From a virus, in the IMG/VR virus record IMGVR_UViG_3300028550_000640, positions 1 through 23,873 of that record: DNA of 23,873 bases. One strand, 5' to 3'. The notes below the pieces were generated by a model. It did not search any database. It saw nothing but the letters and a program-made list of their open reading frames with translations, and was not told the DNA's origin. Numbering within the stretch: the first letter of the stretch is position 1; each line of letters begins with the position of its first letter. The position numbers were made by a program, and so were the translations under genes. Below are positions 4,516 through 23,855 of this stretch, piece by piece.

Positions 4516-5241
4516 ATGTTAGATGAACAGGCCGCACAAGAAAAACAAGAAGTACCAAAAAGCGATACCCTGCTAGATCAAGCACAGCCAACTTTAGAAG
4601 CTGGAGAATACTTTCTTTCTGATGGCATTAAAGGTACAGGTGAAGCACCAGAGTGGTTAAACACTGAAAAATATAAATCTGTTGCCGAACAAGCTAAAGG
4701 ATATGCTGAATTATCCAAAAGGTTTGGTGGATTTAAAGGCGCACCAAAAGATGGTTACGCAATCCCTGAAGGTGTTGAAACAGACGATGCTCTATACCAA
4801 GAGTTAGAAGCCTTTGCTACTAAGACTAATATGAACGGTGATGCTTTCCAAGAAGCGTGGGAACTACTGTCCACACAAGGTGAAGTAGCAGAAGAGTACA
4901 ATCAAGAAGTTGAGTTAAGTAAGCTAGGCGACAATGCTCAAGAGCGTATTAAGACTGTTGAAAGTTTTATGAAGAACAATCTTGACTCAGATACTTACGA
5001 GCAAGCTAGAGGATTGGTTACTAATGCCGATACTATTGAACTTGTCGAGTTACTTGTTAGAGCTACTGCACCTGCTAAGTTACCAAGTGAGGGTGGTCAC
5101 AATCCTGAAGGTTTATCTAAAGAAGCCATTGAAGCAGAAATGTTTAGAAAGGATGAAAACGGTAATCTACTACGAAGTGTAAACCCAGAGCATGATGCTA
5201 AAATTAAGAGAATGTGGGAAGCATGGGGCGGCAACCAGTAG
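4516..5241 (+). CDS. Scaffolding (capsid assembly) protein
   Basis: This is an acidic, Glu/Gln/Ala-rich, helical protein of 241 residues, placed directly between the portal block and the major capsid gene, which is the usual site for a scaffolding protein. Such proteins guide assembly of the prohead shell and leave before or during packaging. The first 40 residues look disordered; the central part carries predicted helices (about 70-180); the last 35 residues, ending in KIKRMWEAWGGNQ, contain a short basic helix of the kind that binds coat protein in other scaffolds. T7 gp9 (about 307 residues) is the functional counterpart. The call rests on composition and position more than on detailed sequence match. 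Confidence 0.8.
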   Translation: MLDEQAAQEKQEVPKSDTLLDQAQPTLEAGEYFLSDGIKGTGEAPEWLNTEKYKSVAEQAKGYAELSKRFGGFKGAPKDGYAIPEGVETDDALYQELEAFATKTNMNGDAFQEAWELLSTQGEVAEEYNQEVELSKLGDNAQERIKTVESFMKNNLDSDTYEQARGLVTNADTIELVELLVRATAPAKLPSEGGHNPEGLSKEAIEAEMFRKDENGNLLRSVNPEHDAKIKRMWEAWGGNQ

Positions 5242-5245
5242 TCAT

Positions 5246-5275
5246 TTGATTTCTATAGGGTAAAAGGTGTATAAT
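5246..5275 (+). promoter_or_regulatory. Sigma70-type promoter for the major capsid gene
   Basis: A TTGATT box at 5246-5251 is followed after 18 bases by a perfect TATAAT at 5270-5275. Transcription would start near 5282, giving a leader of about 120 bases before the capsid start codon. The promoter lies in the largest gap of the head block, exactly where extra capsid mRNA would be needed. It implies use of host RNA polymerase. Confidence 0.7.
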
Positions 5276-5290
5276 CCGTACACTGGATAC

Positions 5291-5343
5291 CCTTTTCCCA
5301 AAGGCCCAGTAAATTTAGGTTGAATGCTGACCAATTTACTGGG
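5291..5343 (+). promoter_or_regulatory. Two adjacent hairpins in the capsid mRNA leader
   Basis: Hairpin 1 pairs CCTTT (5291-5295) with AAAGG (5300-5304) around a 4-base loop. Hairpin 2 starts at the very next base and pairs CCCAGTAAATT (5305-5315) with AATTTACTGGG (5333-5343), a perfect 11-bp stem with a 17-base loop that can add a GGT/ACC pair. No T-tract follows directly, so this does not look like a simple terminator. Possible roles are protection of the 5' end, an RNase-processing site or control of translation; all are inference. Confidence 0.75.
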
Positions 5344-5400
5344 TACTCAGCTTAAACCTTGAAAAACTTTTTTTAATTACTCTTTTTCGAGGAACTTCTT

Positions 5401-6237
5401 ATGAGTAAGACTCTCTCATCTGTTGCAGTCACAGAATTTGACTCAATGGTAAAACATGCCTATCAAGGCGTTGGGCTATTAAAGCCTGCTGTTACTATCC
5501 GTAACAACGTAGTTGGTGACACTTACAAATTCCGTCGTATGGGCAAAGGCCTAGCTAACCAGAAGTCTACTTCTGATTTGGTTACTCCTATGAACGTAGC
5601 GCACGAATTTAAAACTGCTTCTCTTAGCAACTGGAATGCTCCAGAGTACACCGATATCTTTGACCAAGCAGACGTAAACTTCGACGAGAAGCAAGAGCTT
5701 GCAAGCACTATCGCGGCCGCTATTGGTCGTCGTTGTGATCAGCTTGTTATTGATGCAATGGACGCGTCTAATCCAGATGCTACTGATATTGCCGCTGGAA
5801 CTACTGGCCTTACTATGGCTAAAGTTATTGCCGCACAAGTAGCTTTGCGTGGACAAAATGTACAGAACCAAAACCTTTATGCTGTTGTAAATGCTGATGG
5901 TCTTCGTGGCCTTTTGAATGACGAGCTGGCTACATCTTCTGACTATCAGACAATTAAAGCTCTTGTTTCTGGTGACATTAACAGTCTAGCTGGATTTCAG
6001 TTTATCATTCTGGGTAATCGTACAGAAGGTGGATTGAATATCTCAGCCGCTAATACTGTTGATTCTTGGTTCTTCCAGCGCGATGCTGTTGGCCTTGCTA
6101 TCGGTATTGACATGAAGACTTCTGTAGATTATGTTCCTGAGCGAACTTCATATCTATGTAACGGCATGCTTAAAGCAGGTTCTGTTGTTCGTGACAACGG
6201 TGGTCTGGTTAAAGTTTTGTACAAAGACAACGTATAA
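5401..6237 (+). CDS. Major capsid protein
   Basis: This is the shell protein of the head. At 278 residues it is shorter than T7 gp10A (345), and the sequence is not closely T7-like. It resembles the compact HK97-fold capsid proteins of other environmental podoviruses: an N-terminal arm, beta-rich segments with VGDTYKFRR near 38-46, a long acidic helix with FDEKQELASTIAAAIGRRCDQLV (about 94-116), and a C-terminal domain with LAGFQFIILGN. The assignment to the HK97 fold is inference from family knowledge. Start ATG 5401 follows GAGGA at 5389-5393. The gene has its own promoter (5246-5275) and is the best candidate for the most highly expressed gene here, with the terminator at 6537-6562 ending the unit after the next gene. 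Confidence 0.9.
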   Translation: MSKTLSSVAVTEFDSMVKHAYQGVGLLKPAVTIRNNVVGDTYKFRRMGKGLANQKSTSDLVTPMNVAHEFKTASLSNWNAPEYTDIFDQADVNFDEKQELASTIAAAIGRRCDQLVIDAMDASNPDATDIAAGTTGLTMAKVIAAQVALRGQNVQNQNLYAVVNADGLRGLLNDELATSSDYQTIKALVSGDINSLAGFQFIILGNRTEGGLNISAANTVDSWFFQRDAVGLAIGIDMKTSVDYVPERTSYLCNGMLKAGSVVRDNGGLVKVLYKDNV

Positions 6238-6248
6238 GGAGAATCATC

Positions 6249-6512
6249 ATGGCTTTTGCAAGATCAGGTTTATGCCGCATTGGCGGTTCAGGAAATGGCG
6301 GTAGCACTTGGCAGTATACTTCTGCTGACGCTAAGGCAGTAGTTGATAACGCAGATTATTTTCTTGCGGCTATCAGTGAATTAGAGATTGGTGATTTAAT
6401 TATTTGTAAAGATACCAGTACTCCAACTGCACCAGTAGTCCACTTAACTTACATTAAGACACTTACAGCTACAAGCATTACTGCGGCTGGCGGTATAGTA
6501 GTCACAGCGTAA
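6249..6512 (+). CDS. Probable head decoration protein
   Basis: This is an 87-residue protein made 11 bases after the capsid stop, with AAGGAGA at 6236-6242 as a strong ribosome binding site. It starts with a Gly/Ser-rich arm (RIGGSGNGG), then shows alternating hydrophobic residues that suggest a small beta domain (about 20-87) ending in TSITAAGGIVVTA. Proteins of this kind directly follow the capsid gene in many environmental phages and are thought to bind the outside of the shell; that role is inferred from position, size and shared expression with the capsid gene. It has no membrane segment or enzyme motif. A terminator lies 24 bases after its stop. Confidence 0.75.
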   Translation: MAFARSGLCRIGGSGNGGSTWQYTSADAKAVVDNADYFLAAISELEIGDLIICKDTSTPTAPVVHLTYIKTLTATSITAAGGIVVTA

Positions 6513-6536: not shown

Positions 6537-6562
6537 GGGGGGTTCGCCCCCCTTTCTTTCTT
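6537..6562 (+). terminator. Strong rho-independent terminator after the capsid unit
   Basis: GGGGGG (6537-6542), a TTCG loop and CCCCCC (6547-6552) form a perfect six-pair GC stem, followed by TTTCTTTCTT. It ends the capsid/decoration transcript, so the tail genes downstream must depend on read-through or on another promoter; I see no convincing promoter between it and 6580. Confidence 0.92.
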
Positions 6563-21013: not shown

Positions 21014-21141
21014 TATTTCTTCAACATAGATTTTTTCTTGCCTTTATGTTTAGCGCCTTTCATAACGCTACCATCTGGCATGACATGGGTTTTCTTTGGC
21101 CGACCAGCTTTACTACCGTATGTACCTTTACCTTGTGGCAT
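21013..21141 (-). CDS. Basic small protein 2 with AT-hook-like GRPKK
   Basis: This 42-residue protein reads MPQGKGTYGSKAGRPKKTHV at the start and ends GAKHKGKKKSMLKK. It has 13 Lys/Arg and one Asp. G13-R14-P15 flanked by lysines resembles an AT-hook core, which binds the minor groove of AT-rich DNA; with so short a motif this is suggestive only. AGGAGAA at 21152-21146 is a strong ribosome binding site that overlaps the stop of the preceding gene. I recall the MPQGKGTYGSK start from other phages without a known function. It overlaps basic protein 3 by one base. Confidence 0.8.
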   Translation of the reverse strand: MPQGKGTYGSKAGRPKKTHVMPDGSVMKGAKHKGKKKSMLKK

Positions 21142-21150
21142 TCTATTCTC

Positions 21151-21429
21151 CTACCATTTTGATTTGTTAGCCCAGTATGCCGCAGACATTTTACCTTTGG
21201 CAATGTTTTTAGCGTGACGAGCTTTGAATGATTTGCGTCTAGCCTTTTGCTTTTCAGTAGTAGGATTAGACCCTGCACCAGATACGCCTTGTTGACCATA
21301 CCGGATAGTTTTAACTTGATCGCCAGACTTGGCAACAACAACGTGAGATTTTGTTGGGTGGCTAGGTGTGCGTTTTGGTTTATTGTAACCAGAGACACCA
21401 ATTCGTTTTAATAAGCTCTTATCTTTCAT
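21151..21429 (-). CDS. Basic small protein 1 (KSHVVVAKSGDQVKTIRYGQQG type)
   Basis: This is a 92-residue protein with 23 Lys/Arg and three acidic residues. The conserved-looking core runs from KSHVVVAKSGDQVKTIRYGQ (27-46) to KARRKSFKARHAKNIAKGKM (61-80), then SAAYWANKSKW. I recall this pattern from many phage genomes as an uncharacterised family. The ATG at 21429 is chosen over upstream in-frame starts because those lie inside the terminator hairpin. It sits six bases after a TATAAT box and has no clear ribosome binding site, which would fit a leaderless message. It leads the operon with the 42- and 50-residue basic proteins. Confidence 0.85.
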   Translation of the reverse strand: MKDKSLLKRIGVSGYNKPKRTPSHPTKSHVVVAKSGDQVKTIRYGQQGVSGAGSNPTTEKQKARRKSFKARHAKNIAKGKMSAAYWANKSKW

Positions 21430-21435
21430 AGCTGT

Positions 21436-21466
21436 ATTATAACAAAAAAAGCCCCCGAAAGGGCAA
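21436..21466 (-). promoter_or_regulatory. Promoter of the basic-protein operon
   Basis: On the minus strand a perfect TATAAT occupies 21441-21436, and TTGCCC (21466-21461) lies 19 bases upstream, a weak -35. The start codon begins six bases after the TATAAT, so transcription would start at or very near the ATG. The spacer is formed by the terminator hairpin and its T-tract. Confidence 0.55.
21444..21464 (-). terminator. Terminator of the upstream minus-strand operon
   Basis: On the minus strand GCCC (21464-21461) pairs with GGGC (21454-21451) around a 6-base loop and is followed by seven T residues (21450-21444). The stem is short but GC-rich. It would end the transcript coming from 23.9 kb and overlaps the spacer of the next promoter. 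Confidence 0.7.
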
Positions 21467-21509
21467 AACAACAGAGAGTAATATAAATAACGATTTAAAC
21501 TTTTAGTTT

Positions 21510-21536
21510 GATAGAAGTTGTTAGCGCAACCCTATC
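21510..21536 (-). promoter_or_regulatory. Imperfect hairpin downstream of the minus-strand operon genes
   Basis: On the minus strand GATAG (21536-21532) pairs with CTATC (21514-21510), and inside it GTTG pairs with CAAC around a 6-base loop, with a G-T wobble and one bulge between. No T-tract follows, so it is not a simple terminator. It lies in the non-coding gap of about 140 bases at 21430-21571; its purpose is unknown, perhaps protection of the 3' end of the transcript. Confidence 0.5.
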
Positions 21537-21571
21537 AAGATGTTTTGACCAAGGAGATCATCACCCAGCTA

Positions 21572-21805
21572 TTATACATCAAAGTTAGGGTGGAGCAACT
21601 TTAATTCTTCTTCTGTTGGTGGTTCTAACCAAGCCTCTTCTTCTGCCTCTACCTCTAGCCAGATTAAATCTAATTCTTCTCTAGCATAAGCAGGGAGTGC
21701 GTGGCCGTAGATAACTGACTCAACAATAGAATCCATCTTGGCAGGGATTTCACTCATTCCAAATTTAATTGCTCTTGCTCTTAGCTCCTGTAAATATCCA
21801 GTCAT
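21572..21805 (-). CDS. Small acidic hypothetical protein
   Basis: This 77-residue protein starts at ATG 21805, which has AGGTGA upstream at 21815-21810; the GTG at 21814 lies within that site and is less likely. It is strongly acidic towards the end (LEVEAEEEAWLEPPTEEELK), helical, with no cysteines or membrane segments. I do not recognise a family. It is the last gene of the minus-strand operon containing the Nin-like genes, 12 bases after the preceding stop. Its acidity contrasts with the basic-protein operon next to it; an interaction is imaginable but nothing shows it. Confidence 0.65.
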   Translation of the reverse strand: MTGYLQELRARAIKFGMSEIPAKMDSIVESVIYGHALPAYAREELDLIWLEVEAEEEAWLEPPTEEELKLLHPNFDV

Positions 21806-21817
21806 AATAGTCACCTA

Positions 21818-22030
21818 TTAATGTTTAGTTTTATCTTCCGAATTAGTATCAATGCTGATGGATAATTCATCTAATAAGATTCTTGCAAGTTGTGAGTGAC
21901 CAGCAAAAGACGCACCTATTGCTTCATAAAAATCATCTGTACGTTTTTCAAAAATTTCTTCGCTTTCTGCGTATTCATGTATCTTTGAGTAGATGTTCAT
22001 TACGTATGTTTTGTATTCTGTTCTATTCAT
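21818..22030 (-). CDS. Small hypothetical protein after the NinG-like gene
   Basis: This 70-residue protein's ATG overlaps the stop of the NinG-like gene (22027-22030, ATGA), with AGGAGAG shortly upstream. It is acidic, with helical stretches (TEYKTYVMNIYSKIHEYAE, 4-22; then SFAGHSQLARILLDELSI near 41-58). No motif or family is recognised. Translational coupling suggests a shared role or at least shared expression with the recombination genes. Confidence 0.7.
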   Translation of the reverse strand: MNRTEYKTYVMNIYSKIHEYAESEEIFEKRTDDFYEAIGASFAGHSQLARILLDELSISIDTNSEDKTKH

Positions 22031-22431
22031 TGTAGTCTCTCCTCATGGTATTTAATTAAGTCATTGAACTCTTTTAGCATTTCTCTGTAGTCAGCAGTGT
22101 ATAACTTTTTGATCTTGCGCTTGTCTCTATGCATTTCTCTAACAAAGTCTTCACCGTACATATCAATCATCCATAGCGTGTACTGACCTTCTGCACTGCC
22201 ATGCTTCATACCGAAACCGTTACATCCTTTGCACTGGGGGTGTACGCACTCCATCTCAAGTGCCCAGTAAGACGAGCTACCTTTGGCTATGTAGTGACCA
22301 CCGTCACACTCCTTCCAGTGCATTCTCTTATCACAAGAAACACATTCAACCATGCCATATTCATCTGCGGCTGATATTCGTGCTAACTTTTGTATCGCAG
22401 TTAAACATTTAGAACGCAGTGTTACGGCCAT
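22027..22431 (-). CDS. ninG: NinG-like recombination protein
   Basis: In lambda, NinG (Rap) is a structure-specific DNA endonuclease that resolves branched recombination intermediates. This 134-residue protein, shorter than lambda NinG (about 200), has the expected zinc-finger/HNH-like pattern: C30-x-x-C33 followed by HWKECDGGHYIAKG (38-51) and HPQCKGCN at 64-71, with C67 and C70. A charged helical tail follows. The missing length is mostly at the N-terminus, which begins directly with a short basic helix. GGAGAG precedes ATG 22431. Neighbours are a nuclease-like gene upstream and a NinB-like gene further up, so the block resembles part of a lambdoid nin region. Confidence 0.88.
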   Translation of the reverse strand: MAVTLRSKCLTAIQKLARISAADEYGMVECVSCDKRMHWKECDGGHYIAKGSSSYWALEMECVHPQCKGCNGFGMKHGSAEGQYTLWMIDMYGEDFVREMHRDKRKIKKLYTADYREMLKEFNDLIKYHEERLQ

Positions 22432-22445
22432 AAATACTCTCCATT

Positions 22446-22997
22446 TTAAATAAAAGCCTTTTCATATAAATGAGTTTCTAATCCCAAAAAAAGATCAGAC
22501 ATAGGTAGCATTTGGTGGTACTTCATTTTGCCTACATCTTCACGTTCATTTAAACCATTACTATTTTGTCCTTTTAGCTTTATTTCGCATTCGTCCCAAT
22601 AATCTTTTTTTCTGTGCCAGCCCATAAACTCGACACTCTTTGCTTGCGTTTCCCCTTTTGGGATTAGCACACTACTAAACACATAGTAATGGCAGGGACT
22701 TTTCTTTTGGTACAAGGCGACATGAGTATCATAATCACGCTGACATTTAACAGTTCTTTGTTTGGCTTTAATATCTAACGTTGCATCACCAACCTTAAAG
22801 TCATAATGATAAGAAGTCTTTGCTGTATAATCATGCTCTAACATCAATTCATTTAAATAATCTCGAAAAATTATTTCAGCTAAATTACCCACATATTGAC
22901 CAGTTCCACTTTTAAGAATGGTTTTACTATTAAATGCTGACCCAGATGATTCTTGCCTAGCTTCAGCGTCTTGTTTTTGTGTTGGGAAAAACAACAT
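22446..22997 (-). CDS. Possible PD-(D/E)XK nuclease between NinB-like and NinG-like genes
   Basis: This is a 183-residue protein of no recognised named family. GQYVGNLAEIIFRDYL (33-48) contains E41; YHYDFKVGDATLDIKAKQR (63-81) has D66 and then D75-I-K77. The order Glu, Asp, D-x-K fits the core of PD-(D/E)XK nucleases, where a helix glutamate and a D...DxK pair bind metal, so a DNA-cutting role is a reasonable guess. GGAGG at 23006-23002 precedes ATG 22997. The gap of about 100 bases upstream contains an inverted repeat, so expression may be separately set. It ends 14 bases before the NinG-like gene. Confidence 0.75.
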   Translation of the reverse strand: MLFFPTQKQDAEARQESSGSAFNSKTILKSGTGQYVGNLAEIIFRDYLNELMLEHDYTAKTSYHYDFKVGDATLDIKAKQRTVKCQRDYDTHVALYQKKSPCHYYVFSSVLIPKGETQAKSVEFMGWHRKKDYWDECEIKLKGQNSNGLNEREDVGKMKYHQMLPMSDLFLGLETHLYEKAFI

Positions 22998-23025
22998 TTA
23001 AACCTCCATTATTTTTTATTTTACC

Positions 23026-23041
23026 ATACCATGTAGGGTAT
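23026..23041. repeat. Short inverted repeat ATACC-N6-GGTAT, possible operator
   Basis: ATACC (23026-23030) and GGTAT (23037-23041) form a symmetric site with a 6-base centre, in the only non-coding gap of about 100 bases between the NinB-like and nuclease-like genes. AT-rich sequence with promoter-like elements lies beside it, but no convincing -35/-10 pair. A repressor site or a weak RNA hairpin are both possible. Confidence 0.35.
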
Positions 23042-23098
23042 ATCATAATTTTCGTTAAACGCTCTGAAATAGCCCTTAGAATGCCTTTAAACAGCATC

Positions 23099-23533
23099 CT
23101 AGACACCCTTGTCCATAGCTTGCTTGGCAAACAATACACCAATGCCATGAGTCTCACCTAAATGTCTTGTTAAAGTTTCAGCTACAGGTGCTACTTCCCA
23201 AGTATCTAACTCGCTACTGCTTTCTGGTTTGTTAGGATACATTGCTTTTTGTACTGCCATCCACAATTTATCCATAACACTGCGAGAAGTCCACGGAGTT
23301 TCTATTGGATTCTTTAACAGTGGGCTAGTCGTTTGCATTTCAAACCCTGCATTGTTGCACTTGTTTGCTATGTCTTTACAGAAAGCCCAGATAGCGTCAT
23401 TTTGTTTTATGGTTCTTGGCTTGCCTAACTTGTAATTGAACGTAACGTACTTCTTTTTCTCGTATAGTTCAGTTGCAAACTTAACATAGCTTTCCAAACG
23501 CGAGTCACTGTTTACTGTATAACCTTCAGGCAT
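23099..23533 (-). CDS. ninB: NinB-like recombination protein
   Basis: Lambda NinB (Orf) is a recombination mediator that binds single-stranded DNA and SSB and helps load strand-annealing protein. This protein has 144 residues, the usual size. The stretch RTIKQNDAIWAFCKDIANKC (40-59) matches the hallmark R-x-x-x-Q-N-x-x-x-W-A of NinB proteins, and a following Trp- and Lys-rich part (81-100) and TWEVAPVAETLTRHLGE (111-127) keep the family order. The match is from memory of the lambda protein, so moderate certainty. AGAGGAG precedes ATG 23533, and the start overlaps the end of the upstream gene. Confidence 0.72.
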   Translation of the reverse strand: MPEGYTVNSDSRLESYVKFATELYEKKKYVTFNYKLGKPRTIKQNDAIWAFCKDIANKCNNAGFEMQTTSPLLKNPIETPWTSRSVMDKLWMAVQKAMYPNKPESSSELDTWEVAPVAETLTRHLGETHGIGVLFAKQAMDKGV

Positions 23534-23855
23534 TTAAAATACTCCTCTTTAGCCAATTGGCGCTGATTACTTCTGCGTAAGAGTCAAATTGAGTTACGCG
23601 GTGTCCGTCTGTTTTTACTAATTGGTTAACAGCTTTGCTTCTTATTTGTTTTGCACCAAAAACAAGATCAGTTCCAATACGTTTGTTTAAATTATTGATT
23701 TTAATTCCAGACAATGCTGATATTTCTTTGTACGTGTATTTTTTATAAGTCTTAAACCCATTTGTTTCTTCGCCCATATAAGTCATTAACTTTTCCGGCA
23801 CTGATTTTTTGTGGTATTTTTGTGGTTGCAATAAAATCAAGTCATTATCGACCAT
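23526..23855 (-). CDS. Hypothetical protein with possible helix-turn-helix
   Basis: This 109-residue protein starts near the window edge (ATG 23855) and overlaps the NinB-like start by eight bases. The stretch Y-T-Y-K-E-I-S-A-L-S-G-I-K-I-N-N-L-N-K-R-I (about 40-60) has the spacing of a helix-turn-helix: a helix with EIS, a turn at SG and a second helix. The overall charge is basic (LKR, RSKAVNQLVK). It might be a DNA-binding regulator or recombination accessory protein. No family name is justified. A real start further upstream outside the window cannot be ruled out, although the frame reads through the last 18 bases without a clear start. Confidence 0.65.
   Translation of the reverse strand: MVDNDLILLQPQKYHKKSVPEKLMTYMGEETNGFKTYKKYTYKEISALSGIKINNLNKRIGTDLVFGAKQIRSKAVNQLVKTDGHRVTQFDSYAEVISANWLKRSILNA

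Follow-up and report, generated by a model that had tools for sequence, protein, structure and literature searches.

A conserved structured leader RNA upstream of the capsid gene of podovirus-like phages and its possible role in gating translation

The capsid gene and its promoter

The DNA analyzed here (the window) is a 23.9-kb virus record from a podovirus-like phage, in which portal, capsid and tail genes follow a T7-like order; a comparison with 50,697 phage records found no close DNA relative. A gap of 159 bases separates the gene in the scaffold position, which ends at 5241, from the major capsid gene and holds a promoter and a series of hairpins, which are listed together with the downstream genes in Table 1. 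The capsid unit usually ends at a terminator: in 81 of the 95 distinct relatives, a crude test detected a terminator-like hairpin 3' of either the capsid gene or its downstream neighbor. One relative (L388) also has a strong terminator hairpin at 2260-2319, in the interval between the scaffold gene and the capsid promoter, where Rfam matches are sub-threshold (SorX, 35.4 bits against a cut-off of 46.6); this suggests that the capsid unit of that phage is insulated upstream too. Elsewhere in the window, a block of minus-strand genes (21060-23855) faces the structural genes and includes a NinB-like recombination mediator (23099-23533).

Table 1. Features of the capsid-gene leader and the capsid transcription unit, in window coordinates.
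Feature	Coordinates	Strand	Basis
Sigma70-type promoter	5246-5275	+	-35 TTGATT 5246-5251, 18-nt spacer, -10 TATAAT 5270-5275
Predicted transcript start and 5'-terminal conserved stretch, ACU-GGAUACCC (last two C part of P1)	5282-5292	+	Start from -10 spacing; GGAYACC near-invariant
P1 hairpin, CCUUU-UCCC-AAAGG (strands 5291-5295/5300-5304, exact)	5291-5304	+	Sequence; compensated stems in relatives
P2 hairpin, 11 bp, 17-nt loop (strands CCCAGTAAATT/AATTTACTGGG, 5305-5315/5333-5343, exact)	5305-5343	+	Sequence; covariation
P3a helix, GCUGA 5326-5330 with UCAGC 5347-5351	5326-5351	+	Covarying junction pair
P3b helix (putative), AGGUU 5317-5321 with AACCU 5355-5359	5317-5359	+	Able to pair in 95 of 95 distinct sequences; excludes P4
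P4, anti-Shine-Dalgarno CCUUGAAAAA 5357-5366 with UUUUUCGAGG 5383-5392	5357-5392	+	Folding; strand permutation test
Major capsid protein gene	5401-6237	+	phrog_3437 major head protein, E 5.5e-51
Small gene of the capsid unit	6249-6512	+	phrog_18004
Intrinsic terminator, end of capsid unit	6537-6560	+	Sequence prediction

The promoter matches the sigma70 consensus at 10 of 12 positions, which is by itself unremarkable, as 8 promoter-like sites occur in 3.5 kb against 6.8 expected; it is credible because it is conserved in relatives. Among 103 distinct upstream sequences, a -10 hexamer (TATAAT, TATCAT or TATTAT) lies 9 nt before the motif GGAYACC in 97 and 10 nt before it in 6, and this spacing is fixed although the upstream sequence varies between groups of relatives. 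A -35 match of at least 4/6 is present in 83 of the 103, against 15 of 103 shuffles, with a TTG-type box in most. The predicted start of the transcript at about 5282 fits the fixed -10 spacing, and the sequence is best explained if host RNA polymerase makes a capsid mRNA whose 5' leader spans 5282-5400. A search for T7-type RNA polymerase (PF00940), which recovered the T7 enzyme as a positive control, found none in 14 related records; these include the complete 34.8-kb genome of MEP301, while the window and several of the other records are fragments. The published account of MEP301 reports neither an RNA nor a DNA polymerase (PMC8024684).

Two further signals in the gap were considered and set aside. 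The T7-like promoter that could be read from CTATAGGG at 5253 is the sole exact copy in the window, has near matches at chance level, is not kept in relatives and has no phage polymerase found to go with it. A leader peptide starting AUGCUGACC is not conserved: only 55 of 103 variants have its start, and the length of the loop shifts by 1-2 bases. An imperfect DNA palindrome spans the -10 box at 5257-5293 (AGGGTAAAAGGTGTA/TACACTGGATACCCT); in one clade GGGTA occurs together with GGATACC and GGGTG with GGACACC in 49 of 52 sequences, and it may be either an operator or a hairpin that hides the 5' end of the element in read-through transcripts.

Conservation and fold of the leader RNA

A search of IMG/VR with the capsid protein, which made no use of the leader sequence, returned 80 loci, and nearly all of them carry the same leader upstream of the capsid gene. 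Two DNA-pattern scans added further loci; because such scans favor the bases given in the pattern, our statements on invariance also rest on the capsid-derived set. In total the element was found at 233 places, in 95 distinct sequences, each directly upstream of the same capsid gene family, and a search with a capsid alignment mostly recovered loci that were already known. The relatives form three groups, whose capsids are 78-92% identical to that of the window. Each genome has one copy at confident scores; a weak second match in one relative (L213, 10002-10070, 18 bits) lies inside the tail tubular B coding sequence and is probably due to chance. No cultured phage in the isolate collection carries the element, and no phage record has a similar leader or similar genome DNA. 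A pattern scan of genome contigs found no host or provirus copy apart from a match in Pseudomonas batumici, which has the short pattern only, without P2 or a capsid context, and which we take as chance.

The two hairpins that follow the predicted start, P1 and P2, are directly adjacent. An earlier note on this DNA had described a sigma70 promoter and back-to-back hairpins of 5 and 11 bp before the capsid gene, all of which are present exactly as it said, and had held a perfect 11-bp stem to be unlikely by chance; when the 155 bases were shuffled 2000 times, perfect stems of 11 bp or longer arose in 8 cases, and P2 is the only such stem in the window. The whole leader folds with -29.8 kcal/mol (z = -3.1). 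The compensatory changes that the same note proposed to look for in relatives proved strong. A covariance model aligned 69 distinct matches; its fitting to P1 and P2 biases the alignment towards them, and P3a lay outside the model. Across P1, P2 and P3a, 96.3% of cells are paired and 9 pairs have changed on both sides, giving 123 both-side-changed cells against 38 in shuffles, while slid controls are 21-51% paired. In P2 alone, 99.8% of cells are paired and 4 pairs have changed on both sides; its G-U wobble pairs indicate that the pairing acts at the level of RNA. When mapped on the capsid-gene tree, pair states are seen to change repeatedly: two P2 pairs, for example, each changed 7 times, and one P4 pair changed 8 times.

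The columns of the MAFFT and model alignments misplaced one P3 base in one clade and shifted P1 by one base in some sequences, and P3 and P1 were therefore also counted sequence by sequence. Direct parsing of relatives led to the same conclusion as the alignment and gave P1 stems of CCUU/AAGG, CCCA/UGGG, CCG/CGG, CUAU/AUAG and CCUC/GAGG. P3 is a pseudoknot that joins the P2 loop to bases just downstream, with P3a as its inner and P3b as its outer half. The variable junction pair of P3a is G-C in 54, A-U in 32 and G-U in 9 of the 95 distinct sequences, with zero mismatches. P3b varies by wobble only, never by a change on both sides; from its sequence we infer that it forms, and its conservation could partly reflect P4, described below. 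A linker of 3 nt connects P2 to the downstream strand of P3, a short distance for spanning a stem of 8-11 bp, so that P2 may need to open partially, or P3b may not form alongside a complete P2.

Several stretches of unpaired bases (the 5' GGAYACC, GGGYACUCAG and those in the P2 loop) are near-invariant, which would be expected if the RNA folded into a binding site; the leader thus has a structured domain with invariant unpaired bases, as in a riboswitch receptor. Taken together, we regard it as nearly certain that a conserved leader RNA exists and has this fold. Rfam 15 contains no match to the element, even at relaxed thresholds, and the best weak match in the leader is Teg49 at 20.6 bits against a cut-off of 186. 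We found no account of this leader in the mainly open-access literature that we covered, and an earlier description may exist.

Sequence comparison shows a structured leader 5' of the capsid gene to be a wider feature of these phages. The MEP301 group, at about 44% capsid identity, has a different conserved leader of about 115 nt at the same place, after a promoter-like site and directly upstream of the capsid gene (L142 2887-3003, L322-L401); 18 of its 24 predicted pairs have changes on both sides, and it has no match in Rfam. A function shared by the two leaders is putative. Just upstream of the capsid gene in two Vibrio podoviruses (L145 and L146), TAAAAT immediately precedes an inverted repeat (GGTGGGGCGGTACTTTACCCCGCCA in L145), a simple hairpin at the expected start of the transcript.

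The Shine-Dalgarno hairpin and the proposed switch

Neither P4 nor the pseudoknot between the P2 loop and the downstream bases figured in the earlier note. P4 covers the Shine-Dalgarno sequence of the capsid gene (GAGGA, 5389-5393), which is paired in all 88 whole leaders that were folded, with a median probability of 0.997. The two strands of P4 co-evolve: 0 of 2000 permutations pair as well as the native combination; the permutations ignore relatedness, and this zero is not to be read as a probability. Among 71 distinct 3' parts, the first three pairs of P4 are always possible and the fifth is G-C, A-U or U-A in most, while in some relatives the P4 loop contains additional, inserted hairpins and the closing helix is intact. 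P4 probably controls capsid translation.

P3b and P4 are mutually exclusive because both need the CCU at 5357-5359. Nested folding of the window gives about -27 kcal/mol for P1, P2 and P4 with its apical extension, a rough value since P1 was one base out of register in the evaluation, which affects every absolute value with P1 in it; the free P3 duplex gives -11.7 kcal/mol. These models favor the form with P4 for the window.

We propose that the element is a new cis-regulatory leader RNA that gates capsid translation by exchange of P3b and P4, a reading to which we assign a probability of about 0.55. By default P4 would form, bury the Shine-Dalgarno sequence and keep capsid translation low (the OFF state). 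On formation of the full pseudoknot, P3b would capture the CCU that P4 needs, P4 would open and capsid translation would begin. The trigger could be a phage or host protein, a metabolite or the speed of folding; only one gene is ever found under the element, which is unusual for a metabolite riboswitch. Comparison of relatives establishes, at the level of sequence, the helices P1, P2, P3a and P4, the constant distance from the promoter and the occurrence of the element with capsid genes only, whereas the direction of the switch and the existence of a trigger are what we infer from them. More broadly, and tentatively, the element may represent an RNA switch of a new class, responsive to a ligand or a protein, through which phages that depend on the host's RNA polymerase set the timing of capsid synthesis; in sister phages, at least one other structured RNA, unrelated to it, would fill the same role.

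The earlier note had suggested that a host-type promoter and a structured leader might do here what phage-specific promoters and RNase III sites do in T7, namely raise capsid expression. Its outline holds insofar as the capsid gene has its own promoter, a structured leader and a layout like that of T7 gene 10, with no T7-type polymerase found. The idea that the leader simply raises expression is unsupported: the default fold buries the Shine-Dalgarno sequence, and a regulatory gate on translation therefore fits better. Processing of the leader by RNase III is likewise unsupported; its longest helix is 11 bp.

Other readings and known systems

The identity of the trigger is where autoregulation enters, as one possibility within the switch model and not as a full alternative to it. 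A phage protein (capsid, scaffold or other) may bind the pseudoknot and set P3 against P4, by analogy with gp32 of T4, whose gene 32 mRNA has a pseudoknot leader that acts on translation and is bound by its own product (PMC535899). The restriction of the element to this capsid gene and its single confident copy per genome are in keeping with such a circuit, but relatives whose homologous capsids are 44% identical have an unrelated leader, and we regard autoregulation as possible though doubtful.

A role in stabilizing the mRNA, with no switching, is unlikely. The 5' structure would shield the capsid mRNA from RppH and RNase E, and the U-rich P4 loop would serve as a ribosome standby site; the element does lie no more than about 3 nt from the predicted start, at a fixed spacing, capsid mRNA must be abundant, and the Vibrio relatives have their simple hairpin just after a -10-like box. 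Protection of an end, however, requires neither near-invariant unpaired bases nor a pseudoknot, and a conserved helix that buries the Shine-Dalgarno sequence should lower rather than raise expression.

Antitermination of the kind seen with the put RNA of phage HK022 is disfavored, and we consider it improbable. In such a mechanism the nascent RNA would bind host RNA polymerase and suppress termination; put RNA is about 70 nt long, with two stem-loops near the promoter start, and the leader resembles putL in its two adjacent stem-loops just after a promoter (PMC9378689), and the phages that have this leader appear to depend on the host for RNA polymerase. The terminators found after the capsid gene or its neighbor would be odd if the leader abolished termination, and the tail of the element is tied to the Shine-Dalgarno sequence. 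Least probable is a signal in the DNA, with the repeats as operators for a regulator of the capsid promoter: the palindrome over the -10 box in one clade (5257-5271/5279-5293) has matched A/T and G/C changes in 36 and 13 of 52 sequences, but G-U pairs in P2 (columns 28-72, 29-70, 30-69 and 31-68) break DNA symmetry while keeping RNA pairing, and P3 and P4 lie far from the promoter.

If the P3b/P4 switch is correct, a podovirus in which no RNA polymerase gene can be detected uses an RNA fold at the head of a message made by the host, and not a phage polymerase, to control the late protein that it makes in the largest amount. The switch makes a prediction that can be tested with reporters, for an RNA family that Rfam 15 lacks and that is common in marine viral contigs, and it suggests that further unlisted structured RNAs are present in the capsid leaders of related phages.

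The translational riboswitches SAM-II, SAM-V and preQ1-II place a compact pseudoknot beside an element that controls access to the Shine-Dalgarno sequence, and the leader probably has a similar arrangement. It differs from them in having no Rfam match, in its restriction to one phage structural gene and in the prediction that it is ON upon formation of the pseudoknot. Riboswitches of the glutamine class do occur in marine phages (PMC9004378). With the T4 gene 32 leader the element shares a pseudoknot in a phage mRNA leader; we saw no relation between the two, and the gene here encodes the capsid. The resemblance to HK022 put lies in the element's length of about 75 nt and its two promoter-proximal stem-loops, P1 and P2, whereas here a pseudoknot and a Shine-Dalgarno hairpin are added and the unit ends in a terminator. 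The nearest parallel in layout is the gene 10 unit of T7 (phi10 promoter, leader, gene 10 and Tphi), which likewise has its own promoter directly 5' of the capsid gene and a terminator before the tail tubular A gene; in the phages described here, a host sigma70 promoter stands in place of the phage-polymerase promoter, and the leader is predicted to be pseudoknotted with its Shine-Dalgarno sequence buried.
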